Shown: piece by piece, positions 9,257 through 47,100 of the stretch
Layout: the number at the start of each line of letters is the position of its first letter
How positions within the stretch are numbered: the stretch's first letter is position 1
Assembly: GCF_921293095.1 (NCBI RefSeq)
Contig: NC_060259.1
Span: 25,613,812-25,677,811 of the forward strand
Direction of reading: 5' to 3'
Source of the DNA: Ischnura elegans
Lineage: Eukaryota > Arthropoda > Insecta > Odonata > Coenagrionidae
DNA: 64,000 bases
Program-made: the position numbers and the translations under genes
Notes under the pieces: generated by a model
Database searches by the model: none
What the model saw: the letters and a program-made list of their open reading frames with translations, nothing else
What the model was told of the DNA's origin: nothing

Positions 9257-11390
9257 CCCATTTATGCCGAAGGTTTGAAAAATGCGAATTTTACCCCGAT
9301 TTTTACATATTGTCGATAAAAACAAGTTTGAAAACAATATCCGAAAGGATAAAAAATGTATCTCTTGCCAATTATTAATTACGAGGTGTTCCAAAAATGG
9401 AACACTAGGCAAATCCACTACTATGACGTACTCATTGATAGCATGCAAAAATTTTGATTTAGACTTTTATTAACTCACTATTAAGAATGATATCCAGGTG
9501 AACACTTAATATGCAAGGATATATTGCAGTTTTTACATTGAAAAGTGGTATTTGGTTCAGCAGAATTACCATTTGTCTGTATTGTAACAGGTCACATGGC
9601 GACGAAATTCAAGAAGATCCATTGGCTTCACATCGTTTATTTTATGCAATTGCCAAGCATTTTGTAAAGTCAGCTCAAAGAAGAATAACCGGAGGGCTTG
9701 AGTACCATTTTTTTTCCACCGTTTGACGCTTGGTACTTGTCAATATTTTCATCAGCTCGGTCCACTCCTCCCATACACTGATTATAGACCTTGATTGAAT
9801 GTGGCAGAGGAACTTGTATCTTTTTTTCTGATTTTGAGAATAACGACTGACCGTTGCAAAGGATTGACACCGGCACCAGTAGATGCAGCAGTTACAACAC
9901 TTTTATCATTTCATTTACGAACAGTATTGCCTTTTCCATCAATTCGGTAACCGAATGTGCCCCAATCTTTTTTATTTAGGGTAGCATCAGATAGTAAAGG
10001 AGGTTTGTTTACGCGATCTTTTCTCGCTATGCCAGTTGCTTGGTGGCCCATTGAATGAAGTTTATCAAGGAGTGCAATGCTTGTAAACAAGTTATCGAAC
10101 ACAAAATGGTATTTACCAGGATTCTGAGTTGTGAGTGCCTCAATGAATTGCAAAACAATTGGAGCGCCTACACCATATTATTGGTATTGAGTGTTCGGGT
10201 TTTTTCCTTGATAAGGCTGAAACCAGCAAATGTAGCCTAGACGCACCAGAATTTATACCCAAACCAAATAGGCTTACCCCGAATGAACTGTTTCAACCCG
10301 TCAAGGCCGAAATAGGGAATCATGGCCTCATCAAAGCTGAAGTATATTACATTTGGCACAAATTTCATGCATCTGTCATTCAGACGCTCAGAAGTCGCAC
10401 CTTGGAAAACTTGTCCGTGTGGTTCAAGTTAGAATTGTCAGCAAAATGCAAATTTGAAAATATTGTTTCAAATCGGTCACGTCCCATTGCACCACTAACT
10501 AGAGAATTATGCGAATCTTGTCTTTGCTCCCAACGTCGTCTCGGAACAGAGACGTAACCACTCAGGAAAATTATTCCCAAAAAAAACCAACTGTCAGTTC
10601 AAGGTTCACTTCAATATCCAGAAAGAATTCTAAATATTCTGTAGGGGTTTTCATTTTCGTGATTTCTTCTTCTGAAACCCAACCTCCTACTGGCTGGGCA
10701 GTCAGATCGCCCTTCTTCCATTTGCGCACAACTTTGGTTACCTTTTTTCCTATAGCAAGAAGAGGTTTAGGCGAAGCAGAAGCCGATGCACCGCCATTTT
10801 CAGTAGTATCAGCATCCGGTATCAGATAAAGGTAAAAGTTCTCGTCGGAAGAACCATGAATGAGATGAGCAGAAGTGCACAGCAATGAACCGGGAACATT
10901 ATTAATTGTTCCACATCTAATTGCTGACTTGATTTAAAATTAAAGTGAACATTTCAGTGCGCCTGAATGCACGCATAATAGTAGTGGATTTGCCTAGTGT
11001 TCCAAAAATGGAACACTGTTAAATAAAAGCTTATAACTAAAACAAAATATGTTGTTTCAAAAAGTTCTCCATCAAGCACTGTAAGTTAACTATTAATGAA
11101 TATGCCGGGAAAAATTTATAACATTTGGGTGAAATGGCAAATAGTTATTAATATAACATTAGAGATGGTCACAGAAAAACTGCCTTGAAAAAAAAGACTG
11201 ATATTTCTCAACACACTGGCTGCGATAGGTTGGCAAAACAGACTAAATCTTTGCACCCCATAATTCAATGTATCTTTATAAAGAGGTACAGGAAGAAAAA
11301 TCGTGGCATATTTGTGTATAATGAGTCATAGTCATTAAATTAGAAAGTCACATCAGGTGTTCCAAAAATGGAACACTAGGCATAAATGGG
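9257..11390 (-). mobile_element. piggyBac element, full length, transposase broken
   Basis: TTAA lies at 9253-9256 and 11391-11394, the piggyBac target. The ends are 12-bp perfect inverted repeats CCCATTTATGCC / GGCATAAATGGG. The palindrome GTGTTCCAAAAATGGAACAC occurs three times, at 9386, 10997 and 11357, and about 37 bp around the first and second are inverted copies. The 2134-bp length fits a transposase gene of normal size. The gene lies on the minus strand and is broken. Confidence 0.88.
9670..10885 (-). pseudogene. piggyBac transposase, broken
   Basis: Pieces in family order on the minus strand: an N-terminal part with VRKWKKGDLTAQPVGGW and a PTEYLEFFLD stretch (10571-10885); IIFLSGYVSVPRRRW with RDRFETIFSNLHFADNSNL (10380-10580); DEAMIPYFGLDGLKQFIRGK with the first catalytic Asp (about 10290-10340); FVFDNLFTSIALLDKL with the second (within 9911-10153); and NQCMGGVDRADENIDKYQ near the end (within 9670-9876). 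The pieces lie in different frames with stops between them, so several frameshifts have accumulated. Host domestication is unlikely given the decay. Confidence 0.85.
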
Positions 11391-20100: not shown

Positions 20101-23100
20101 TTTAACTGGTACCTTGATGTTCGAATTATCCAAGTTCCACTGTACATGAATAAGAAAAGACTGCTTATATGTACAACTTACAAAATATTGTTCAAGGTTT
20201 ATTGCTTACCTTGAGTGACAGTTGATGTCCAACTGCTACTATGTAGTACAGTAACCGGAACAATTTGAGGCTGTTAACAGAAAAAATGGTGTAAATGATA
20301 TAAAATCTTTGATAGTTTGTACACAAGGCATAACACATGTAAAACATAAAATAAACCTTTTTTATGAATGCAGTTGATAATAGATTATTGAAAAATAATT
20401 TGCAAAATGATAGACTCTGCGAAGGTGATGTTCAAAACACGAGTAAAATTACCTGAACTGCATTATAATGGTATTAAAAAATAACATGCAGAGGCACACT
20501 TCAACAGAAGGTAGAAATAGGTATATGTGTTAATCAGAAAACTTATGGCATAAATAGATCAGAAACACCAAATAGTGATCAACCCTTTTGCAGTTGTAAA
20601 TTATACCATGAATCATATGGACCTATTTCGTGATTATGATTGAGTGAAGAGACACCAATTTACTTGTAGCTGGCAATGATACAATGAACTGTAAATGTTA
20701 TGTGTCAATAAATTATTATTGTTATTGATCAGTAAGAACTTAAATACGCCTCCTTACATCATTTCATGACTTTACTGCAAAGTCTCTACTTTGAATAAGT
20801 GACCATGATTCAAACTGGTTTCCCAAAAATTATTTCGGTACTGATTCTTTGTGGGCTCAAATCGCAAGAACTGGTGGCACTTAGAACCAATACATCTGTA
20901 GATCTTTCCTCAGTGACGGCTACAAGGCTGTGTCACTGGCTAAGAATAATGATAAATAATATACTGATCTGATCTACATCCATATCTGAACAAACCCTTG
21001 TTTTTCCACTTGGGTCCATATTTGGAGCACTTGTTTTCGTGATCTACCTGATCCTTAGGTTGTCAGTAACATTAATAGCCACACCCTGATCCTTTATTCT
21101 GAGAACACCATTTTAATTCTATCTGACCCATTTTATACCTTCACATATTTTATAAATCAATAAGAACCACAGGAAACATCAGAAATTGATGTCCACAAAA
21201 CTTTCTTCAATTCAGTGACACTGACTGTTTGATCAAACTGATACCCTGACCTTTTCAGAATTTCCAAACTTTCACACTTTACCAGACTATGTATTTGCCA
21301 CTGAATACTTTAACAAATACATGATTACCTAAGTGGACATAAAATATAATAAAATGCAAGCAAATTACATCCATAAAAAGAGTTAAGGAAAATCATGATT
21401 TTTAACGGCTATGGAACACCAGCCGAATAACATGACGGAATAATGATACCCAAGTGTGGAAGATACACACATATTGAAGAAGATGGGGAAAAAGTGCCTT
21501 CTTGCTTCTAAAAAATATATGATTTTCGAGATTATTATTATTGTATTCTACCGATTAAGGTAGGTTTCCATGGAGTACTCAGGAAGTGATCTGGGAGCCT
21601 CCCTTTCCTTCCAGCGGTGCCTTCTTCAATTCACTGTAAGGCCTACTCTCTTTCAATCTATCTAAAAATCCTATTCTTTTCCTTCCCCTCCCTCGTTTCC
21701 CTAACATTCTACCCTCTAACACCATTCTCAACATCCTCTCACCGCTAAGCACTAACTCCACCCATACCTTCTGTCTCCTGCGTATCTCATCTAAAAGCTG
21801 CCTCTCCTCGCCAACCATATCCAGCACTTCGTCGTTCCTTTTCCTCTCCGTCCATTTCACCCTCTCCATTCTTCTCCATACCCACATCTCGAATGCCTCC
21901 AATCTTCTCTCGTCTTCTTTCCTCAGTGTCCATGTTTCCGCACCGTATAGAGCTACACTCCAAATCAAACTCTTCACTAACCTTTTCTTTAAACTCTTAC
22001 ATAACGATCCTCTCAGATGCTCCTTCCTGGTCACGAACGTATCCTTCGCTAATGCAATTCTCTTCCTGACGTCCTTACTACTGTATCCGTTTTCCTCTAA
22101 TGTACTGCCTAAATAGTTGAGTTGCTCAACTTGCTCAAGTTGTTCACCACCCACCTTTATCTTGAGTCTCACATTCCTCGCTCGTGATGCTTTACAAAAC
22201 CGCATAACCTTAGTTTTCCTGTGATTAATCCTCATCCCGTACTCCTCGCAATGCTCGTATAACGCATCCACTAGAGCCTGAAGCCCCCTCGCTCACTGGC
22301 TAATCAACGCCTGATCATCCGCGAATGTCACTGATTTGAACATCATTCCTCCGACTTTTATTCCAGCTTCTAACTCATCCCACGCTTCCCTTACCATCTC
22401 TTCAGCGTACACGTTAAAGAGCAGCGGTGATAGAGGACAGCCTTGCCTCACACCTCGGCCAATGCTTGCCCACCCAGATTCTCCGTCCGCTACCCTCACT
22501 TGCGCAGTCTGGGCCATTTACAGATCACGAATCAGTCGTCTATCCCTCCAATCTACACCTATTCTCTTGAGAATATCCATTAACTTTATCCAGTTCACCC
22601 TATCAAACCCTTTCTCAAAATCCACGAAACACGCATGTACGTCCTGGTCATATTCTGGGTTCTTCTCGACGAGGGACCTCATTATTGCTATTGCATCACG
22701 AGTTGACTTCCCTTTTCTGAAACCAAATTGATCTTGGCCCAAATACTCGTTTGCCCTCGCCTTCATTTGTCTGTTCAATATCCTCAGCACCACTTTCACC
22801 GCATGCGATATTAGGCGGATAGCCCCATAATCTCCGCATTCCACAGCTTTCTTCTTTTTCGGAAGCAGAATTAAAACTGTCTTCACGAAATCCTCCGGCC
22901 AACATCCCTCCTCATAGATCCTGCGCCCTAGTTCGAAAAACCTTTTCTTACCTTCCTTACCTAGATTCTTCAGAAGCTCACACGGGATACTGTCCACGCC
23001 TACTGCTTTCCTAGCCTTCATATCATGAAGTGCTCTCTCTATTTCCGAATCTACTATCTCCGGCCCAAGATTATCCTCCTCCACTGCACTTTCCTCCTCT

Positions 23101-26100
23101 AGAGTCAATCTCTCTGGTCTGTTCATTCCGTCATGCAGGTTCTCCACATATTCCTTCCATCTACTCTGTACTTCTTCTCGCTCGGTTAGCATCCTCCCAT
23201 CTTTAGCCTTAATTTTAGACATGGCTTGTCCTCTTTTGCCGCCCGATAGCGACTTAACTTTGGTGTACAACTACTTCAGTATGGCGCCTACTTCTCCATC
23301 CTTCTGGAACTTTTCCATTTCCTCACTCTGTCTTTCCCACCAAGCCTCCCTTGCCCTCTTAGTTTCACGTAGTAATCGATTATTCAGTTCCCTATACATT
23401 CTTTTGCCCTGTTCTGTGTCCACGTTCTTCCACTTCCTCCTCTCCTCCATTTCCCTTATCATGTTCTCCGCTATCCACGGCTTATTTATCCTTCTACGGT
23501 CAACGTAACCAATTGACTTCTCCGCCGCTTTGACTATTCCTGTTTTAATATTATCCCATCTTTCCTCAACAGTCTTGGTGCTGTCAATGTCCCGCATAGT
23601 AATGTCCACTAGATCCTGATATTCTCTCCTCATACTCCCCTTCAGGGCTTCTACGTTCCATTTCTTTGCCTTCCTAACTTCCATAAGTCTTTTGAATCTT
23701 ACATTGCATTTCATGAGCACTAGATTGTGATCCGAATCCGCATCCGCTGCAGGGAAGCAGTGCGAGTTTTTTAACACTATTCCTAAACCTCTGTCTTACC
23801 ATAATGTAGTCTATTTGATATCTCCCCACATCCCCTGGACTTTTCCATGTGTACCTTTCCTTTATGATGATTGAACCACGTGTTTGTGATGAATAATTTG
23901 TTTCTCCTACAAAATTCTGCTGCTTTCTCTCCCCTGTCGTTTCGTATTCCTATACCAAAATCTCCCATTTCGTTTCCATCCCCGACTGAGGCGTTCCAGT
24001 CCCCCATCACCACCAGATTTTTCTTAACCGGTGTGTCTCTTAATTATTTCCTCGAGCTGTTCATACACCTCATCTACTTCTTCTTCCATATGATTGCTAG
24101 TGGGCATGTAAACTTGGACCACCACAAGGTTGGTGGGCCGCGCCTCAATTTCTACCACCAGAATCCTATCGCTTACCTGGTCTATACCTGCCACACGCTT
24201 ACCCATCTTCCCGTTTAATACTAAAGCTACCCCTCGCTGGCTCTCTTCCCCTCCACTATATATAACCCTATACCCATCACTCCAACAGTCCCCGCCATCC
24301 CTCCACCTCACCTCGCATAATCCTAAGATATCTATCCTCCCTTTATCCATTTCCCTCTTGATATTTTCTAACTTCCCCGCCCTCATCATAGTCCTCACAT
24401 TCCACGTCCCTACATTTATAGCAGACTTCTTCTTCTCCATCTTCTTGGTCTTCTTTTCTTCCTTCTTCATTGTTGCTGCTGCTGATGATGATGATAAGTC
24501 TCTGCAAGGATTTCGCATGTTGGCGACCCTGAGGACCTTGCCGACCTCGCTGCCGTGCCCGACACCCGCCCTATGCGGACGGGTCCCGGGCGATGAGATT
24601 CCGAGGCTCATTTGGTTGTACTCCATGTGTTCAGGGAAGAGATAGTTGGTAGGGTTTCCCACTTCCATTCCAACAGTGTTTTTCACATGACACCATCACG
24701 TGGACTACCCTTCGTCAGGCTCCTACCCTTCGACCTATGTGGCATGGGTGGCCCTACCGGGAATAATTTAGAATTAATCCCGCCAGTGCAGCTCTAAGGG
24801 TCATAGGAACGCGCAAGCCTTTCCACCGCGACAAGGTTGTAGCCCAAGGGAAAGGATTTTCCAGATATGCTTGTTATATTCCCTGACATTCTAGGTACAA
24901 TAAAATTCCAAAACTTTCCAGATTTTCCAGGAGAGTGGCCACCCTTTAGATCTGGCTCTTACCCAGAGTATCTTAATTCATACATCTCAGTGTCTTAACT
25001 GAATGCATTTATTCGGGATTTCATCGAGGTGAGTGGGTTCAATGCCCACATATTAATACTCATCTAATTTTTGGTGACACATTGATTGCATGAGAATGGC
25101 AACCTCCCCCTAGGTAGTTCTCTAAAAATTGCCACTGCCCACATCATAGGAAAATGTATTTCAAGATTCCAAGCACATTGTATGGATACCCAAGGAAAAA
25201 ATCCAGAGCATTAGATAGGAATTAGAAACTAGACAAGACTGAAGTACAACTTTTGATTATTTAATAACAACTAAGAAATTAGCTCAATACTGTCATTGCC
25301 ACTGAGAGATTGTGGTCAGGTTTCATGAAAAAATCAAAGAAATTAATCCTGATATTATTATTGATTAGAGTTTCTATCTGAGACTGATTTGAGACATACT
25401 AATCTTGAAAGCAAGACAAATGCATACTATGATTTCTCAGTACCTGTTTAAATGCAACACTGAAAACACCCCACATTTAAAGCATACCCCTTTTTACAAA
25501 CTAGCAAACAAAATATTGAAGCTATCAATTCATCAAAAGCTGATTTCATTCATTTTTGAGCAAAATAGTAATGCATTTTTACATTCCTCAAATTGCCAAG
25601 GACTAACAAAGGGAAGATAAAGACATCTGGCAAGTAGCAACTAAGCAGAAGTAAAGCAAAGCATATGAACTTACCAAATATTGTTGCTTAGAACTTTTAG
25701 CCAAGCCCAGAGTAGTTAAGGGTGACACTTGTGGATGAGGGGGGTCAGGATGAGACTGGACTGTCATCATTGGTGTGAAACCATCTGATACTGAAGGTTG
25801 GGAAAATACATAGGAAAGGGGGGAAGAGGCACTAAGAGATGGCATGGTTGGGTTTATAATGGATGCAGGCATGGAGGAGTAGCTATTAGATACAGTTTGT
25901 GCACTAATAGTGACTGAATATGTAATAGGTAATGTGGCAGTAAGGGATAAGGTCCCTCCTTCAGTCCCTAATCTCGTCAACTTTGGCGGGTTTCCAATCG
26001 ATGTGTTCACCATCTATGAGACAAAGGATGAGGACTAAAGTTAACCTAACAGCTTTGACTACGCCACAACACCAACATTCAACCAAACAAGATGTGTTGT

Positions 26101-32100: not shown

Positions 32101-35100
32101 TCATCGAAAATAGATTCTTTTCCCCCTTCTAGTGAAAATGACTGAAAACAGCAATCTTTCTAATTTATTCCCATGATTTTTTTAAAGTCCTCTGCAGTTA
32201 TCAAATTCAAAGAGAGTCCATTTTCATGAGAATTTTCTTTTCCCATGGGCTAATAAATGATAGTAAAATGCAAGCCCCCAACACTTCCTCCCAGTCCAAT
32301 GCAGTAAAGTCAATGCAAACATTCTACACTCATCTCCATAGTTCAATGCATGTTTACTTATCAATAAGCCTTTCAATGCACTTTTCAATGTCACCCAGAT
32401 ATTTGACCATTCGAAATAGTGGTGGCCACGCTTCACAGCACTGGCAACTGTATGCCTGCGGCCAGGCCAGGAACATTTTATTTGGCCCCATTAATATTAC
32501 TAGATTAGAAAGCTTCAACATACATATTACTTTGGTGCAAAAGGCCCATGGCCCTGCCATGGTTGCATAGCCCCAGCCAAATTCCCTGACTACACAAACA
32601 ATATTTGGGATTTCATACTATGCAAATAGTATTCTTCGAAATACCTTGCAACCGCCTTACCTCTGGAGAGATGGTGTTCCTGGAGGAGAAGATGGCTGCT
32701 GACCACTGCTCACCACATTACTCTCACTGGGATCACCCTCAAACGGAAGAGGCACTGCATCACCCTCGGTTAGTTTGCTATGCTGCTCAACTATATATTG
32801 AATGGTGTAAAAATTAAGGAAAAATTATCCCTTTTCACCTTAGGCATTTCACATTGAGAACTAAGCATTTTAAGTTATTTTATGCATTCCACTGTTGATA
32901 GTTAAATTTTTAGCAGTTTTTCCATACAACTCATTCTACCCCATTACATCTGCCAGGATAAAGGTACTCATAATGTCAAAACGAGCACACATTCTCTGAA
33001 TTTTAAACATTTGACTAACTCATCTTAACTTACTATTTAAAAAAAGGAACATCAAGGGCAGTTTGATGATTTTCACAAAATAAGGCATACTTGGTAAGCA
33101 AGTTACACTGGCAATTGACAGTGCCTTGAATGCATATGCCAATGATGATAAGAAAAATTCTTCTCATAAAGAGAAAAAACTATGACCCAACATAGTTATC
33201 ATTAGCAGTGGAAAGGTTGAAAGTAAAATTTGTTCATTCTAAGTTCCAAGGAACAACTTCCCACCTGACCCACATAGAAAGAGCCATAATAGCACAGCAT
33301 CACACATAATAGCATAGCATTAAGACTTCTAGGAATAAACCCAATGTACTACACAGGTGGAACTGTACCCTCAGGGTTCCCACTCCACCTAAATAATGAA
33401 ATTCACGGTTTTTTCCAGGTTTTCAATGTTTTTTTCAGGTTTTCACGGTCTCAATGTCAAATTCATGGTCCGTTTATAAGTCAACAATAGGACAATCACC
33501 GGCCGTATATTAACTAAAAATTTACGTACGCGACATACGCCATGAATGCAAATGCAGCAATGAAAAGTGATAACTGTTATGACGTCAACGTTTGGAAAAT
33601 TGAGGGCCAACTAAAGGCCCAACCCAACCGTGCTCTTGCCCGGACGCTGAATGCCATGGCCTCCTTTAATATGCGAATGCCCTTAGGACCTTATTCCGTC
33701 TGAACACCAGAAGTCCTTTTTTAATTCCTCGCCGAGAGATTGTTTTTTTTGCACACGTTGTTATATCCGCACAGTAACCAAATTTCCCTTACCCAATCTT
33801 TCTGAGATCGCGGAAAATATTTATTAAAAATGTTTATAGAATGTAATAAATCAATTTCATATAATTACAGTGGAACCTCAATCTATCGTTTTTCAGGGGG
33901 CTGGGCGAAAAAAACGATGAATGCGGGAAAACGATCGATGCAGGAATGTTTGGATAGGTTGCCTATGTCCCAGTAAACGCAGGATTTTGGCGTTTAACTA
34001 TGATATTTGTTAATAAATTCAAAGAAGATTTTATCCAATTACAGAAATACTAGTACTTTATCGAGACACTAAGGCCATATTGTTGATTCGAATAATATCT
34101 CTTTCAAATATTCTAAAGGAACAGGCCACCTCACTAAAAATGTTTGCTCTCCATAATGATATAAGGGATTGAACGAACTACGGCCGTTAAACAGTGGAAA
34201 GAAAATTAATTTCCCAAGACCGTACTCTTTGATGCGCAGATGGGAGAGGTAATAATGTTAACACGGGAAGTGATGGACAAAATAAGACACTTACGGAAAT
34301 ACAAACTTGAAACTAACACACGCACAAGCACTCACTTACTCAGGTTTGTGAAAAACACGCTACCGACAGTGACCCACCCACAACAATAGAAAAGGACAAA
34401 TAATAAAATAAATAAAACACGCTCTCATTCACGCACCTCGCGGGTTTGCTCCAAGGAACAAAAGGCCGCGTAGGACACACGCACTCACTCACTCAGGTTT
34501 GTGAAGCTCATGCTTACGACAGTGACCCACTCACACAACAGAAAAGGACAAATAATAAACAAATAAAACACGCTCTCATTCACGCACCTCGCGGGTTTGC
34601 TCCGAGGAACAACTGGCCGCGTAGGACACACGCACTCACTCACTCAGGTTTGTGAAGCTCTCGCTTACGACAGTGACCCACTCATACAAAAGAAAAAGAC
34701 AAATGAAAAAATAAATAAAACACGCTCACATTCACGCACCTCGCGGGTTTGCTCCAAGGAACAACTGGCCGCGTAGGACACACGCACTCACTCACTCAGG
34801 TTTGTGAAGCTCTCGCTTACGACAGTGACCGCCACACACACGGGAAATGGGAAGGTAAAGGGTAAAAGTGCCCAAGAAGTATCTCCTGACACCAGGTGTT
34901 TCTCCTGCCAAGCAGGCCTCCTCAAAGGAGAATGAGGAGAGAATTTCTGAGGTGGGTGAGTGAGAGCGTGTTTTATTTATTTTTTCATTTGTCTTTTTCT
35001 TTTGTGTGAGTGGGTCACTGTCGTAAGCGAGAGCTTCACAAAACTGAGTGAGTGAGTGCGTGTGTCCTACGCGGCCAGTTGTTCCTTGGAGCAAACCCGC

Positions 35101-38100
35101 GAGGTGCGTGAATGAGAGCGTGTTTTATTTGTTTATTATTTGTCCTTTTCTGTTGTGTGAGTGGGTCACTGTCGTAAGCGTGAGCTTCACAAACCTGAGT
35201 GAGTGAGTGCGTGTGTCCTACGCGGCCTTTTGTTCCTTGGAGCAAACCCGCGAGGTGCGTGAATGTGAGCGTGTTTTATTTGTTTATTATTTGTCCTTTT
35301 CTATTGTTGTGGGTGGGTCACTGTCGGTAGCGTGTTTTTCACAAACCTGAGTAAGTGAGTGCTTGTGCGTGTGTTAGTTTCAAGTTTGTATTTCCGTAAG
35401 TGTCTTATTTTGTCCATCACTCCCCGTGTTAACATTATTACCTCTCCCATCCGCCCATCAAAGAGTACGGTCTTGGGAAATTAATTTTCTTTCATTTGCT
35501 CTCCACTCGGCATTTACCCTGCTATTATGGATTTCTCTCTGATATAAAAATCCATGAAACGCCATTTCCAGTACACGTATTCACGAGAGCCATGTGCATG
35601 TTATGCCTAAAACAACCGCTTTCGCCGGCACAGTGTTTGGTTGTGAGATGGATCATATAGACCAAAATTAGTCCATTATTTGTAATGTTCCTGTCTAATA
35701 AATATATTTTTCATGTTGTTTAGGCAATGTGTAAAGCGTGAACAACTTAGGGTTAATCGTCGGTGGCACACCCGCCTGAGCCTTGGCTTCATCCCACTTC
35801 TTGTTTTCACTGGTAGCTCGCTCAACCCCCTACCGTTATGTGCTAGCGGACAGCCTGAGGCGTTCTCCAATATTCACTCGCTTCTATCCCGGATGCTTTT
35901 CTTCTTATTCAATTATTTTCAGTCCATCTTTTAAAGTACTCACTTTTTTCAGAAGGGCAATGGTCCGAAGACGGATAAAAATAAAACAAAAAAAATGAAA
36001 CCTTACTTTATCAAACCCTCATGAAAAACACTTCCTAGTTTGAATTCAACCCACATTGGAAAGTACGGAACCACTCGTGCGAGGTGAAGTTCAGAACTGA
36101 TGCTATCGCGTACGTCTTACGCAGAACATACTGCAGAGGGTGAAGCATAAACATATGACTGCGCCATGAAATTTTTTGTTCTAAAGAGAAGGCAACTTAC
36201 ACATTCTTTTCTAATGATCGTAGCGCCAGATGAGTAGATAAATTCGGATTGTTAGTAGGGAGAAACAAAATATCTTGAGAAGATATCCCTTCCTCAGTAA
36301 CTCTTACAACTGAGACTTATAGTATAGCTCGTAAATTGATAACTGATGATAACCTGATATCCTGTTTTTGGAAAAATGCCACATTAACTGCCGAGAAGCT
36401 CAGCTACGAGGATATCAAGTTTTGCCAGAAATCATCATTGTATTTTTCCAACTATTTTCTTGTTTTAAATTCTTAAATAACGTTAGAAATACGCCGTGTT
36501 TGGTCTCATTCTTTTTTTAATTACGTGCACTTTACAAATATTTCAATCTAATTAAAGTATAATGCCAATTGCCAAAATTCATTGTTAGACACCTTTTGGG
36601 CTAATAGGTATTTAAGCAGCAGTTGACCCCCAGAAACTGGGAACTTTGAAGCAGTTACGCTGAAAAAGGTCAGTGGGTGAGAAAAGGGGGGGGGCGCGAA
36701 ACACGTTCCTATTGTTCTCGTGTAGCTTGATATTTTGTTTCGAAGCTAAGGTCTTCGTAATACGATCCCTGCACGAGCTGAGACCATTTTTTTATTTCGG
36801 AGAAGAGGCAAGCTTCAGAGGGGGGGAGGCAAGTTCTGAGTGGAGGGGGATAGCGGATCTTGGGAAATGCGCTAATGTAACTATCCCACGGCACTCAGCT
36901 TCTCCCTATTGTAATTCAATCTCCTGGGGGTGTCTGTCGTTATAAGCCACAAACAACTCGTTGTAAACACTTCGTCTCATTTTCGTCAAACGATGGATGC
37001 GGGAAAATTATACGACGGGACCGCGATCTTCAAACGATCAATGAGAGAAAACGATATTTCGGAGAATGATGGATGCGGGAAAAAATTACATTGCCTTTAC
37101 GTAACTTTATTTGAGACCAGGAACGGCTAACAATGAATGCGGGAATGATAGATCGGGGTTCCACTGTATAATGCACTTGGTTTTAAATACATAAAGACAA
37201 AATAAATACGTACTGAAACACGTTATTTTCACTTTTACTTTATTATTCACACAGATTAAAACGAGGTGAGCGTAGTCTATTGAGAGCCATTGCCATAAAT
37301 TGAAAGCCTATTTGCCGTAGAAATGTTTCCTTAAGTAAAATTCCAATGGCAAACTCATATTTCGAAGCATATGGCATGTGCCCTAATTTTGTGTGTGAAC
37401 CGTGTGAACCCTCAAGTTACAAATCAGATAATTTTCGTAAATGGTTCATTCTGGGTCCATTAGAAATGCAAGTTATTTCATTCATCCTTTTTCAAATACA
37501 CCATCCCAAGCTATCACTGAAATTGAAACGCTTAGACAAAATAGCAGACTTCCTCCATTAAAATGGAAAATATCGGTCAATGTGTCGTCATTTGTTACGG
37601 ACCAATTACTACACTTCGAATATTCGTGTGTAGAGAAATGCGTAGACTAAGAGTCTGCGCGTGCCTGACCATGAAACATGATTAACATATCGAATTTGAT
37701 CAGTCAATCATAGTATTATTATCAAGATTGAGATATTTTTAAGGTTTCATGGCGAAATTCACGGCTTTTTCCAGGTTTTTTCACGGTAGATGAAATTCAC
37801 GGCTTATTCACGGTTTTAAGGTTTTCACGGTTGAGTGGGAACCCTGACTCTACCACAGATTGCCATATGACTGAATTTCGCCTGTTAATATGCACATATA
37901 CAATGAATAAAAATGAAAATGCATTCAAAAGAAACAGAAAAAACAAAACGTATAATTTCTATCTGCTATGACACAAAAGAACCAACCAGAGGGATGTGAC
38001 TTGAAGAGTTCTTCTTTAAGGGATGGTAGGAAAGTGTTGATGCGATCCCAAGTAACAGTCCACAGGGGTGAATACCCATCTGGTGTACTGAAAACCTTTG

Positions 38101-41100
38101 CTGCATCCATCACCAGAAGCATGTTCTTCAATGACTCCGGAATTGCCTCATACTGCAAAAAATATAATCTTTGGTTATAACTTTACATTAGGGCTGTACG
38201 AAATACTCTATATTCCAATGGCTATCAAGAAAAAAACTTGAAAAAAACTAGGCCGGTTTTAAAAAGGTTAATGTCACATTAACATTATGCAGGCACTGAC
38301 ATGTAATGTAAAACACTGAGTTCACATGTGTTTCGATAGTCACAAAGCCAGTGGTTCATTCTACAAAGCATACATACTTAGGGCCAGTTTCACCCACGAG
38401 GATAATTGAATTAACTCGGATAATATTCTCCAAAAACCGAGATATTACAACAATTGCATTTCACCAGATGCATTAACTCGGCTCTGGGCTGCTATCTCGG
38501 TTTATACTTTTACTGACGATATTCCTCCCATCAAAGCTTATTATCCAAGTTAATCAGAGGGCAGATGTAACATGGTGTGCATGCAGCTTCATCAGCTCTC
38601 GGAAAATACGAATGACGGTGATGAAGAATATCGACATTATAATTGGAGACCACATTCATTATGGATAAATGAGCGTGCAAATTATTTAAATATATATTGT
38701 AACGTACGTTTCTATACTCATCCCAAAATGGCAAAGGAAACTGCAAAGGCAGTTCTCGCACTCATTGAAGAAGACAAATTTTACTCACAAGGGTAAGTGG
38801 AGGTTTTCAATGCCGTATTTTTTATGGCATTTGGAATGGCATACACATCTCTAAACTGTTAGCGGTTCCATTGAATGGGCCTTGGTTTGGCTCTAATTAA
38901 TTAACTTTTATGCATTACTTTTAACAAGCCTTTAACACATTCAATGCGGATGATATTTTCGCCGTAACCTCCAATGACGGATGGGTGATTTTCCTTCCTA
39001 GCGGTGGTGTTGGAAGTAATACAACAGAATTTGCAAATTTTTGTTTCTATTTCACACAATTTGTAAAAAACGTTAATGACATACATATATGCCACCCGTC
39101 ACCAATAATTGACAATTCACGCAACCCGCATTACACACATGCAATTTTACTTGTATGAAGAGGTAAACTTTGCATATTTCCGTTTATAATACTTCTCCTA
39201 CCATTGATGCCTTAGGTTAATGACGAAAATATCTTGGAATTAGTCTTTAGGTCTAATTTTTTAGTTTCAAAGGCTGTAGATTTAATTTTTTCAAGTCACA
39301 GAAGTAGAACACACAATGAACGGCAATGAAAATATAAATTTATGGAATAAACATTTTTTTTTAATCAAAGCAAATCTATGTTACCTCAGGATTATTGCAA
39401 AATTGAAACATTTCAATAAAAATTCTTACAAATTCTTATGATATATTTGAAAGCAAGGCCTTACACAGAGCCCTGGTTGACCTTCACATTCTGGGCCAAT
39501 CATAGTCACTGTCCTACGGATGCCTTCACGGTTAGTGGAGAAATGAACAGCCTGCATCATTCCTAAAAACCTATCACGGCACATTTTATCCCTGAATATC
39601 GGTACTCGCACTAACTCTGACCTCCTCCAATCGTTAGAAATCGTGTTAACCCTAATTGCGCCCATGTGGAGAAGAAGGCCCAGCCAAGTTTCCAGTTCTC
39701 CCTGCCCAACGGCTTCCAACCCATTATGCCCTTAGTGAAGGCCCTTGGTGAAGGATTTCGGGGGAAAATGCTTAATGCATTTTACTCCGTCTACGAGAGG
39801 ATTATTTCAAAGAAAATATCATTTGCAAGTTGAAATAATCCCTGGGAGTGCCGCTGGTAGGGAGGGACTCCAACCTTGGCCTTAAAAATTATCCAGAAAA
39901 ATAGTACAATTTGTGTAATGGAGTGTTGCATATGTGATTAATATGTTAGTTTTTATGAAAAATAAGACTGTATCTGTACCAAACACCAGAACGTATTAAT
40001 GACCTACAAAAGGAAAACACCATAATGAACAAAGGACAAGTAATTGATGTGGAGAAATGACTGAGAAAATAGGCCGTAAAATTAGGAAATAAACCCAAAA
40101 ATGTAAAAAAACGTTATTTGCAATAATGATTTTAAAAATTATTAATAAAGTATAAAATACGACCTTATGGAACGCATGGAAACATTTTGGAATAAAATAG
40201 TGAGTTTTGAGACGGGAATACACGTTATTAACAAAAACTAAGTCTGATCATAATTCTTGTGGTTGCACATAAGATATGAATAAATTAAAAAATAAGATAA
40301 AAATACTATTTCAAGGGAATAAATAATGGTTAAATGCCGTAATGCTTAAAATGCCTCTGAGTTTATCTATTCATTTCCCCAATTTCGTTTACAAAGCTAA
40401 GGAAACAAATACATGAGTTAAAAAATACAAACCACTACTGTACATAATGTAATGCAGTGTTGCATACGCGATTAATATGTTATTTTTTATGAAAAGGAAG
40501 AAAATCTGCAATTAACCCCAAGACGTATGAATAACTCAGAAAATGAGATAAAATCAAAATGAATAAACGATTGGTAATTGACCTAGAGAAACGAATGAGA
40601 ATATATACCGTAAAAGTAGGAAAAAGATCCCAAAAAATCACCCAGGATAAACATAATTTGCAATAACAAAAAAAAAGTTCCTAGATAAGAAATTCAAATA
40701 TAACATAATCAACGGAAGCACCGCACTAAGATCATTTTTTTATAATGTAGTGAGTATAAAACGGGGATAAATATCTTTAATAAAAAAGTTAGCCTAATCA
40801 TAATTTTAGTGATAGCACATAAAATATGAATAAATTAAAAAGGAAGGTAAAAAAAAAAACAAATTTAAAAAAATAATCCATTTGTAAGACATGATGGGAT
40901 ATTTGCGATAAGAATAATGAAAAAGAGGTGAAGGAAATGAAAAGAAAAATCCCAACCTGCCAAATTGTTCCAAAAATAGCACTAACGTAAACAAAAAAAC
41001 ACTAAAAATGAAGGAACATGTAGAACTAGAAACGGAAACTTCCGTAATGGTGTAAGGTCACTCCCGAACTGCGGGAGGGTGAAAAAGTAACGCTAGGCAC

Positions 41101-44100
41101 GCTCGGAGCACCCCAGTGACCAGCGGAAAAACAAACTCCCGAAGACATACATTTATGTCTTCTGCCTGAGTGGAAAAACCTTCATGGCATAAATATATAT
41201 GTCATCCGCACTGAAAGTGTTAATTTCAAAATAACCCACAGTCCGACACATCAGTCGGTATAGAAGTTCCGACGTTGACTCTCACCCAGGGGGCCGGGTT
41301 TTGGGTTTACCTCATACCAGTATATTTCGTTGTTTTGATCATACGGTGACAAGTATGTGATTAATTTGAATAGAAGCAAGCATAGGCATGAGGGAAATTT
41401 TTTTATCATCATAATCCGGCATGTGATCTCCTTTTGTAAAAGCAATTTCACGTTTCTTTCTCTTTAACTTGAGCTTTTCCATACCTATGCTCTTCTTGAG
41501 CTAATGGTTCCAACAACTCTTACCAAAATATGTTTGTATTCATAAATGTTACTAGCTTTTCTTTGAATTTTCTTACATATACATACATACAAAATCCTTA
41601 ATCTCTGTCCTCTTCCTGAATTAATACCTATGTAACGGCATCATTATCTTCGAAATCACAATTTTACCACTGTAAGACGTAATTAATTATTGTAGCACAA
41701 AATAAGCAAGACCTGTGTTTATTTAAATCTGGGAGTCTCGTTAAATTGAAAATTTTCATTTTTAAATAATGATGCATTAAACAAAGGTGCTTATAAGTTT
41801 TTTACTGCAATATTCTCACATTCCTTGCTCTTGCCAAACGCAGTTACCCTGTTTTTTATTTATTTTTTATTACCCATGCATGGTATTTGGCAAGGTAAAT
41901 TAATAAATCCTTCCACGAAAACATCATATTTGAGCTTTTCTAACTCTCATTGTCAATATTAAAACTGTTGCTATTCATTTTCTCACTCTGTACTTGGTAC
42001 GTACACTTACCGGCTGATTAAAGCTGACTGCATGTCATACGGCTGCTTACCGTCATTTATTTTTCCCACGTCAGAGTTATGAAAAACGTACGAGCCAAAT
42101 TATTTATTCTGATTATATCGGTTTTTAAAAACGAAGATAAAATGTCGTTGGTGAAAAACGATCCTCACATTACTGAGATAATAATTTTAACCGAGTTTTT
42201 GAAAACTGAGATAATAGAGAATATTATCCTTGTTGGTGAAACTGGCCCTTAAACAGCGAAAAAAGGCAAATACATGCAAAATGGCTTTAATATAGAGCAA
42301 AATGGCTTTACTTCAATGCTACATCAATGAATTAAAGTAAGTAAAAATTTAATGCACTACAGGGCCAGATAAATGATACAATTGTAAAACTTACCAATAG
42401 ATCACTCTTCTCAGCATGCATGTATTTGTCCATGAAGTCTAGAATAGTGAGCCAGAGAGCGGTGAATGTTGGCAATGATAGAAGAGGTGATAAGTGATGT
42501 AAAAAGACCTGCAAAGTAGAAAATTATCTCCAAATATTAATGAATTCATTCTTATAGCTCAATAGACACATTCAGCACAAATAAACACAATTTTGTTTAA
42601 AGACATCCATGGTTTCTAACACTCACAGCCTTAGAAACACTAAACAGTAAAAAAAAACTGTGCACCACAAAGAGAAGAAACCTAATGATTTTTTCAAGTC
42701 CTTACTTCCCAATATATTTCCCAATTTCAACCTAGATTAGTCAAAACAGCAAATCATTGAGAAACTAGAAATTTTGAATTATCCAAGATAATCAGAGCTT
42801 ACTGATATAGTAGCCAGTGAAGAGGGTTAACACAACTGAAATCCAACAGACAAATTTTACACAAGATGAATTCCTAACAGTAGTGTACAGGTGTCCCTCA
42901 CTAAACATAAATTCACTTAACATAGTTTCTCAGGGACAAAACTGGGTGTCAAAATTACATATTTATGTGTAAGGCATTTGCTTTTATATATTCATGAATT
43001 AATAAACAGCTAAAAGGGTATAGTCATTTACATTGATTGATCTCTGTGCAATATAAACTGTATTGAAGCAAATGGACGTATAATAATTTACAAATTCCAA
43101 TCAGAAAATAGGCTCTGTAACACAGAAATAACTGACTGTAAATGAATACAACACTTTCCCTGTCTTTAAAGCCTACTATGAATAAAGAATACAAATTAAA
43201 ATAGCATAAAATGAGATGAGGAGTAGTACAGGGTACTTGAAACACACTAGCCAAAAGACTTATAAACAATTTATCAGAGAAATTTGAGCCATCCTTGAAA
43301 ACAGATCAACAATTAACTGTATGATTCAGGTAGCACCAAAATGGCCCTAGAAAATCAGTCAATGGGACCAAAAGTGTCAAGTATACCACCTTTATTACAC
43401 CTCTCAGTTAACACAAAATTCGCTTCACACGATACATTGCTGAAGCATATCTTTATTGTTGAACATGGGCTGCCGGTACCAGTAATTACTGTCTTTGAAG
43501 AGTTTCAGCAACGAAAGTTAAACTATTCTCATTATGTGTCAACAATTATGGACTATTGAGCAAAGGCATGTGTACCAAAGATTATTGCAATTGAGTGTTC
43601 TATTTAAAGCTAGGAATGCAAAGGTTGTCCCTTCATATTGATAATACAGCTCAAAGTACTTATGTAAGCTTCACGCACAGACTACAGTGGAAGCCTGGTT
43701 TTGTGAGTACAGCATTTTACGAGAATTGTATTTTTGCGAGTGAAAATCTTTGTACCACCAAATGGACTATGTTTTACAGGTAAAATAAATCGCATTTAGC
43801 GAGGTCAAAAAGTTTCTTCCACTGTGTACGCTCGGTTTTATGACATGTATTTCTTGAGGGTGATGCACCGCTGAGCAAGCATTAACTATTATGTTTTGTA
43901 TTACCTGTTTATTAAACTAAAAATACAAGATGTGTGTCAGATCTGCTACACCTAAAGCCAGTTATGTCTAAGCATTTTTGTGATTTACGGACTTGAGTAC
44001 GCTCCACGTGCTCCCATTTTATGTTCTTATTTTGTTACACCCAGCTATCAATAGGAGGGGAATAGGAGAAAGATGACAGCGGGAGAGAAGGTTAGTTCCC

Positions 44101-47100
44101 CCCCATCTTCTTTGGCTGGCTTCATCTCTATATTACAAAAGGCTTCTTATTGACTTACGACTTATGGAAAGCTAGAGCAACATTACCTTTCGCTGCATGC
44201 TATCCAGCGACGTATATTTGGCTGTTTCATTTATGCATACGGATGTAGTTTGATCAAGACATCATCAGCTATTGCCATGTAGGAAAATCGCAATTATTAC
44301 CAAGGTGGTAAAATAACAATCAACCATAGGTAAGCAAGTGAGGACTCAGCACCGCCGAGTAATCAATTGTAAAAAATTTGTAACAGCAGAATTACTCTGC
44401 TGATAGCAGAAATCCTCTTCTTAGAGACCAATCATAGTGAATCTTCATTATCTCTTCTTCATACTCTCCAAAATTCAGTATAATTCAAAGTTTAACATCA
44501 TATCAGCAGAACTGTGATGCACTTCCGTGCAATCTCTAAAATTTGTTAAAACGAATGGCTTAACTTAGATGCGGGTTACCCTCAAGGGCTATGTACTCTG
44601 CGAGCACAATTAAAAAATGCTATTTCCTACACCTGATCCTTTGAATCTCTTGGAAATGATTAAAAGCTCCGATATAGACTCCTACGTCAAAAATTATTCC
44701 GCTCCTAAGTTTACGACGCAGCATATGCTTCTTTGCTAATCTGTTCCCATGCGGTGCTTTTATTGTAGATATGTAAACCACCCAGGGTAATTTTTTTTCG
44801 GAAGAACAGAAGATTTTACATTAAGTAAAATATTTATATCATCCCAATTGCTATCCAAAAAACCCTTAGACTACAGTACGGCCGGGGAGAGTTGTCCAAT
44901 GCACAGACAGTCCAATGATAGTCCAAAATGAGGGGCAGAGAACCCTGCGCCAGCACGGTTTGCAGCCAATCACTGCCCCCAAAATGCACCTCACACCCTC
45001 ACCTAGTCATACAATGTTGTTGCATGCATGAGGAGCTACGAAACAAGCCCGAAACACCATAACAAGCCCTTCGTCAAGGTCGTTGTCCCTTCTGGCTCCT
45101 TTATTCACAGACGCATTTTGTTTAAATGTTTCCCTTTCCTACCTGGCAACCTTACCCCCTACCCCGAACAATTCTCTGCGGTCAGACTGTATAGAGGGGT
45201 GACTCAATGCACCCGATCCTTTGAGCACGATCCAAGGCAGAGGGCTGATGGGGCCTCAGCATTCAGCAGAAGAGAGCGATTGAAAAACTTCTACCATCCC
45301 GTCGACTGGATGCGCCCAGTCACACAGCAAAGGAGAGTTGGGATGTGCGTAAGGGGTGGAGTTTACTTGCGTGGAGGGGTGGAGTGTGCTCAGTCTTGTA
45401 GGCGTAGTAGTGTTAGGTGGTTTGCGCTAGTGCATCATATCCGGTAAATGTAAATATTTGGACATTAAAATTATAGAGGAGTGCGAGGGTAGCTGGACTT
45501 AAAGGACATAACCAGAAGCGGTTTGGTATCTCGTCATTTACGTAGTTCACAATATTAAAGAAAGATACAATTTGTGCAGTAGAGAACAAACTAGGAACAC
45601 CTAGTCAGCCAAAAATATTTGCAGCAAGGGGAATATCCACAAATGGAATCTGAATGGTGTGATGTTAAAGACGAACGCTGAATACATTTCCAATGGAGAG
45701 AAATGTCTTTGCGAGAAATATCTTTGACCACCGAATCATGCCATATTTCAGTAAATCTTTTGGCCAATTTTTCAACTGACTGATGTACTGATTAAACATT
45801 CAAAAAGTCAACAAAACCAATATTGTCGACATGATATATTCGCAAAATTATCCAAAAACTTCCACCGCATATCAACGATATTGATTCTGACTAGTTACGC
45901 TGTTTTTACAGCTCTCTTCGTGGATCAAAAAATACAAGAACGGGAATAAATTCACCGAAACTGGGGAATTATTATTTTATAAAATTGAAAATCCCCCATT
46001 TCCTTCTTTAAATAATTTGATACTCAATTACATTGTGCTTAATAATGACTTTCTACCAGTTTAACTTCATCAAATACCACGGAAACAAAAGAGAAACTGA
46101 AAATATGAATGATTATGAGACTTGGGTGGATTTATTCAACTCCTTCGGATACAACGAGCGCTCAGTTTTGCGAGTAATTTCCAAGGGATTATGAGCACTC
46201 ATAAAATCAGGCTTCTACTGTAATACCTCTTTGACAATGATTCACAATGATGCTCCCTGAGGCACTATCCCAGACGCTTGTGTATCAGAAATTCACATAA
46301 TTTTTAATGCTTTCAGGATGATACTTGTGCATTCAATTCAGAAAAAAATGACAGCAGTTTTCTAGAAATGGTGCAGAATCAGTTCATCCTTACCTTAGAT
46401 AAAACGGTTGCAGCCCTCATTCTTGTTTCCTCGATGCCAGCAGGGGCTTGTTGAGGAACTGGCTCCAACAATTTTGTGAGCAAAGGAAAAAGAACTTGAT
46501 TGAAGCAAGACTCCCATTCATGAGGTGTAAGAGTTTGAAGATCATGAAATAATAGTCCTCTCTGAAGATAGGTTATGGCACTCATTCTCACCTTAAAAGG
46601 AAAATGGGGAAATAGCATTTATTAATGTTATATATTTGTCCTCTAAGGTATTTGTTTACAATTAAACAATACTAAAATTATCCAAGTTGAATAATAGACT
46701 GACAGAACAATGATCTATGCAAAGTGGCAATGTAAGATGAAGGTCATAGGTTCCCTTCCCTGGCCAGGTAAATTTTTTCTTAGTGCTAATATTGTGAATA
46801 TTAATGATATTCACATGGCAGGTTTGAAATATTAGTAAAGAACCTGAGCAAACAAGCAAACGATTTGAACAGTTAGAATCTCTCCAAATATTTTAAGCAA
46901 TTGATGCTTTTAGCATTCAATATGTAGGGAGTTCAATGACTGAATTACACCCGAACATTTTTATCACAATGTTATTTCTATAAATGCTTAATTGGTGTCA
47001 GACAGCTTGAAAATATAGTTCCACCCCCCATTAATATTTTAGGCTTGATTTTTGAAAAAAAATTCTTCCACAAACTTAACTGATATTTTAAAATGCACTT

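Follow-up and report, generated by a model that had tools for sequence, protein, structure and literature searches.

Penelope-like elements (PLEs) are retrotransposons whose pseudo-long terminal repeats (pLTRs) occur in direct and inverted orientation, with a 31-bp tail optionally present on one inverted pLTR and target-site duplications (TSDs) of 8-10 bp, as described in PMC3846280. For their integration, self-priming was proposed in PMC3846280, against cleavage and extension of both target strands in PMC11167929. In the latter work, purified PLE protein cleaved and extended both strands and started at two sites bounding the tail; that paper links the tail to a pair of neighbouring start sites for reverse transcription, but leaves the later integration steps unvalidated. 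Here we analysed a 64,000-nucleotide stretch of the damselfly Ischnura elegans (assembly GCF_921293095.1, contig NC_060259.1, positions 25,613,812 to 25,677,811 of the forward strand), referred to below as the window, which contains a long inverted repeat built of tandem units. Judged by its sequence, this repeat almost certainly belongs to a PLE family of I. elegans. The best explanation overall is probably a truncated PLE insertion with a hairpin built anew at the time of insertion.

The damselfly family resembles the endonuclease-bearing (EN+) PLEs, namely Adineta vaga Pen2a and its relatives, Drosophila virilis Penelope and Anolis Poseidon PAc, in having an open reading frame (ORF) that joins a reverse transcriptase (RT) to a GIY-YIG domain. 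It also shares with them direct and inverted pLTRs, a one-sided tail of about 31-36 bp, a short TSD, partial tandems and 5' truncation (PMC3846280, PMC11167929). Unlike in other EN+ PLEs, its pLTR carries an array of 151-bp units that varies in length. The PLE kind itself is already known and the array is its unusual feature. Among the papers listed in literature searches on tandemly repeated units within PLE pLTRs and on dual priming, none matched beyond these two, which does not imply absence from print; PMC12910113 offered nothing more specific than general remarks on PLEs.

We aligned the two arms of the window repeat. The facing arms (34197-34742 and 34949-35493) pair in two blocks at 97% complementarity and differ over 545 aligned positions by 12 mismatches and a single gap column; both hold units of 151-153 bp, bearing out the long inverted repeat of tandem units reported in an initial annotation of the sequence. 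Units are paired in register between the arms (150/152, 149/151 and 111/116 on the diagonal). The annotation had given a spacer of about 124 bases; we measured 206 bp between the matched arms, and the unit arrays lie 108 bp apart (34841-34948). It had also singled out the outermost 130 bases or so as specially little diverged, but 3/126 positions differ there against 12/545 over the whole arms. Its proposal of a long hairpin upon transcription is supported as far as folding ability goes, since the predicted RNA structure is one long hairpin of -1106 kcal/mol, a value with no shuffled control at this length (>1000 nt). A chance origin of the repeat was dismissed because dozens of related copies were found across the genome, where the annotation had suggested looking for the same ends, and 41 elements could be read.

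The insertion occupies 34154-35494 (1341 bp) and is flanked by the TSD TTTGCTCTCCA at 34143-34153 and 35495-35505. Its 3' end in sense, on the minus strand, is the tail (34154-34196), of which the core 34161-34196 is common to other tailed copies. The tail is followed on the same strand by the tailed-side ARM (34197-34322), the terminal 126 bp of the pLTR, then by about 3.4 units (34323-34840) and the pLTR centre (CEN, 34840-34948), which adjoins the 3' untranslated region (UTR) and the ORF in longer copies. Beyond the junction at 34948/34949 the order is inverted on the plus strand, with about 2.8 units (34949-35367) and the tail-less-side ARM (35368-35493) that forms the insertion's 5' end when read in sense.

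The insertion lies within a DNA element at 33868-37166 with TA flanks and 25-nt terminal inverted repeats (TIRs; CAGTGGAACC...) of 88% identity, which we take to be pogo-like from its TIR and TA rather than from a transposase. We fetched nine other copies of this element (L040-L048, from 40 scored). All nine have an empty site with a single copy of the target, exact in five and with one base changed in four. The initial annotation was therefore right to place the structure inside a pogo-like element, but the repeat is not part of that element and was rejected as such, being absent from the nine other copies. Because their target site is uninterrupted, the pogo-like element is the older host. 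It is close to certain that the window repeat is a non-coding, truncated PLE insertion in an older pogo-like element.

To characterize the family, we searched the genome (1,722,721,009 bases, 110 contigs), first with 201 bases of arm, and scored 40 of 203, 40 of 447 and 40 of 274 candidates. This yielded 41 elements: L009-L038 contributed 29 (L011 and L012 counting as one) and L051-L061 a further 11, and the window copy completes the set. Twenty-two have inverted ends and a TSD, five are simple truncated insertions with a TSD, and 14 are unresolved. Long ORF pieces occur in only 5/41, a figure biased by the copies having been found through their pLTR. In L024 (C4), the arm leads through the tail into an ATG and an intact ORF of 796 residues; the tail likewise runs directly into ATG and ORF in C11 and C14. 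The ORF matched RVT_1 (E 7.1e-13), and GIY-YIG (PF01541) at 20.1 bits for the whole protein (cut-off 22.6) and 24.4 bits for the C-terminal 137 residues alone. Four related genome ORFs are 31-34% identical to it, and the GIY...YIG motif together with two Cys and His residues is largely common to the five aligned ORFs. Scanned whole in Pfam, these four gave RVT_1 only, with no GIY-YIG match at E 0.01. With the C-termini alone, GIY-YIG scored 22.7 bits in L065 (just over the cut-off) and 14.8 in L062 (below it), and was not matched in L063 and L064. PDB sequence searches with the 796-residue ORF and with its C-terminus gave 0 matches each.

The part map reads, in sense, ORF, 187-bp 3' UTR, CEN, units, ARM, tail and ORF. 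C14 contains a partial head-to-tail tandem, and pLTRs lie in direct and/or inverted orientation in C14, C11, C4 (whose arms are direct repeats) and the 22 inverted copies. Together with the RT/GIY-YIG ORF, this architecture identifies the family as an EN+ PLE. The pLTR array of 151/152-bp units was seen with 0.4 to 18.4 units. Hammerhead ribozymes have been reported in the pLTRs of several PLEs and are not defining. Here, Rfam searches of L024, L013 and window 33000-37500 gave no hammerhead match at E<1; the core motif had one match in L024, outside the element, with 0.85 expected by chance. A ribozyme-defined element end was rejected on these grounds. Two microRNA matches from Rfam in the L013 flank were far below gathering scores. 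Within the PLE family, the minisatellite-like array inside the pLTR and the lack of a detectable hammerhead ribozyme are notable.

We then compared the outer ends, which differ little across most copies. In the flanks of 30 loci, a common 36-bp sequence, the tail (36-43 bp in the window copy), mostly adjoins one end, and unique DNA adjoins the other. Among the 22 inverted copies, 21 are tailed at one end and tail-less at the other, one (C11, comprising L011 and L012) is tail-less at both, and none is tailed at both. If ends were chosen independently, at most half would be mixed, and the probability of at least 21/22 mixed copies would be at most 5.5e-6. TSDs match over at least 11 bp in 20/22 inverted copies and over 8 bp in L053 and C11, the match in C11 being an 8-bp palindrome only. 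In a first TSD comparison, repeats of 11-14 bp flanked 14 two-ended copies, and C14 (L025) was resolved separately; over the 22 inverted and five simple copies, the range is 8-14 bp. Three simple insertions are tailed (L028, L034 and L057) and two are tail-less (C4 and L052). As C4 and L052 end at the tail-less site, beside repeats of 11 and 9-13 bp, this site is a true start. In L057 the repeat measures just 8 bp, 4 of which it shares with the unit, and in L028 and L052 there are 10 and 24 bases between the repeat and the first recognised base. C11 is also the largest copy read (9.5 kb; L011 1-1544 and L012 after 2588), and it sits at the centre of a palindrome, as its two flanks match in inverted orientation (99.2% over 655 bp).

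The inner ends behave differently from the outer ones. The 22 inverted copies have 22 different inner-end pairs, entered by hand from the part maps with BLAST part limits and hence approximate. At six junctions the parts overlap by 2-8 bp, at two they abut, and 11 have 2-12 and three have 24-41 extra bases. Between the arms lie nothing, CEN, UTR or ORF pieces, depending on the copy. In 7/22 copies (L018, L030, L031, L036, L053, L056 and L058), the tail-less arm exceeds the tailed arm in length, and the arms of C7 hold 7.4 and 17.4 units, both reaching CEN. Such unequal unit counts suggest either two RNA molecules or slippage of the array. Two arms of the same element differ less than arms taken from different elements (mean 1.3 versus 3.7 of 126, with 1/100000 permutations as low), in a test of 10 of the 22 inverted copies that left out C11 and C14 (three arms), copies without one full arm and L051-L061. 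The templates of the two arms would therefore be the same or sister RNAs. The initial annotation had taken the near identity of the window arms as a sign of recent formation or gene conversion, which found no support: most likely, both arms were made during insertion as copies of one RNA or of sister RNAs, and the window pair, with 2.2% mismatch, ranks 11th of 21 pairs compared.

We propose that both nicked target strands would prime reverse transcription of the PLE RNA. Synthesis from one strand would start at the distal RNA site and include the tail, while the other would start about 36 nt upstream and leave a tail-less end. The two antisense complementary DNAs (cDNAs) would meet and be joined at an arbitrary point. 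The hairpin would thus be made anew at each insertion, with the pLTR (CEN, 151-bp unit array and 126-bp ARM) present twice, head to head. We regard this dual-priming step, target-primed synthesis on both strands from two RNA start sites, as probable. A related reaction is known from L1 twin priming, where the second target strand primes internally on the element RNA and inversions result. Internal priming by the second strand is common to both; unlike in L1, the damselfly family nearly always has its second start at a single site next to the first, and inverted copies make up the largest class read (22/41).

The strongest competitor is self-priming, in which one cDNA (or antisense RNA) folds back and copies itself into head-to-head arms. 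This mechanism, possibly with an antisense template, was put forward for the Penelope elements of Adineta vaga (PMC3846280), and it would account for the near-identical arms within an element and for the junction of L010, which is palindromic at the same unit position. However, in 7/22 copies the tail is confined to one arm and extra pLTR sequence to the other, so neither can be a copy of its partner there, and for this reason dual priming is favoured. Self-priming also leaves unexplained the tail-less simple insertions C4 and L052 and the rule of one tail in 21/22 copies. Deletion of part of the tailed arm after insertion could rescue it, but overall we consider self-priming unlikely.

An already inverted master copy, transcribed over its full length and then retrotransposed whole, would fit the nearly constant outer ends, but not the varied contents between the arms. 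Since all 22 inner junctions differ, the hairpin was not inherited as a unit and dual priming is again favoured; unless junctions change after insertion, this origin is contradicted and very improbable. The Foldback elements of Drosophila, including Tetris, have the same gross anatomy of long inverted, satellite-like arms of tandem units. Elements of the FB, Galileo and Tetris class carry such units in long TIRs, about 220 bp each in D. virilis Tetris, and are described as DNA transposons with TIRs (PMC4079207), whereas the damselfly family is a retrotransposon with asymmetrical ends. Its one-sided tail means that the ends are not inverted copies of each other, its TSDs vary in length, sister copies carry a contiguous RT and GIY-YIG ORF, and 5'-truncated copies have a TSD. 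We therefore rejected a Foldback-type DNA transposon, the analogy drawn by the initial annotation, as extremely unlikely. Although inverted repeats are hard to assemble, the distinct TSDs, the matching empty sites and the many independent loci on chromosomes of the PacBio and Hi-C assembly ioIscEleg1.1 (PMC9975421) make an assembly artefact a negligible prospect.

Several observations weigh against dual priming. Fourteen of the 41 elements are unresolved (L017, L019, L021, L022, L023, L026, L032, L035, L037, L051, L054, L055, L059 and L061). The tail-less arm of the window copy is closer to 6/9 other tailed arms than to its own partner, which is so in none of the other nine pairs, and the tail-less end of L016 lies about 14 bases inside ARM. 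The chief reservation concerns palindromes, which can lose their centre once inserted; loss of this kind is another potential cause of varied junctions and unequal arms, so that dual priming is not proved. Finally, in PMC11167929 the start site shows no strand difference in vitro; a fixed one-tail rule would therefore need an extra step.

As to its genomic surroundings, the insertion site is likely an intron of a GBF1-like gene, in the same sense as the PLE. On the minus strand, PF23325 (GBF1-like TPR) matched at 46382-46618 (E 6.6e-12) and, below cut-off, at 42335-42523, and Sec7 exons lie 4-7 kb to the right of the window. The open frame with the nearest GBF1-like exon (37928-38182, minus strand), upstream of the insertion in gene sense, matched PF23325 with E 1.8e-4 and 21.7 bits, below the cut-off of 27. 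Four of seven candidate GBF1 frames had no Pfam match. The host gene named by the initial annotation is thus supported by PF23325 and Sec7, while a left-flanking exon depends on the unconfirmed open frame 25606-26013, which had no Pfam match.

Elsewhere in the window, 21582-24695 on the minus strand is probably the remains of a LINE-like (long interspersed nuclear element) retrotransposon, with RVT_1 at 22521-23270 (E 9.6e-12); a Pfam scan of two neighbouring frames gave no match. Transposase fragments of the DDE_Tnp_1_7 family, presumably of piggyBac type, lie at 9673-10598 and 39429-39731 (minus strand). Further PLE loci were noted in the genome. Three 458-residue PLE ORF matches of equal or nearly equal score lie on one small chromosome (C14:276558, 5642162 and 7256431), as if recently copied. 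Another PLE family (C1:37190444-37202779, one copy in L065) has four ORF matches of equal length in the order minus, minus, plus, plus, with a 2527-bp period within pairs, an arrangement that forms a head-to-head pair of tandems. In L054 (C2:1900858-1902528), about 11 units form an array that has 3' UTR and CEN on one side but lacks an ARM; it may be a pLTR-derived satellite that stands on its own.

These results show that a retrotransposon can give rise to foldback-shaped elements with tandem units, and that shape alone is insufficient for filing them as DNA transposons. With dozens of readable copies, their TSDs and unit arrays serve as natural markers that let self-priming and dual priming be told apart; for specialists, the value of the damselfly copies is as a natural record of PLE integration. 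On balance, we lean slightly towards a broader view in which PLEs would insert by a coordinated two-strand reaction, using the distal site on one strand and the proximal site on the other, so that hairpins would be born with exactly one tail. The satellite-like pLTR array would turn them into large palindromes, and the copies would form a fossil record that distinguishes dual priming from self-priming.

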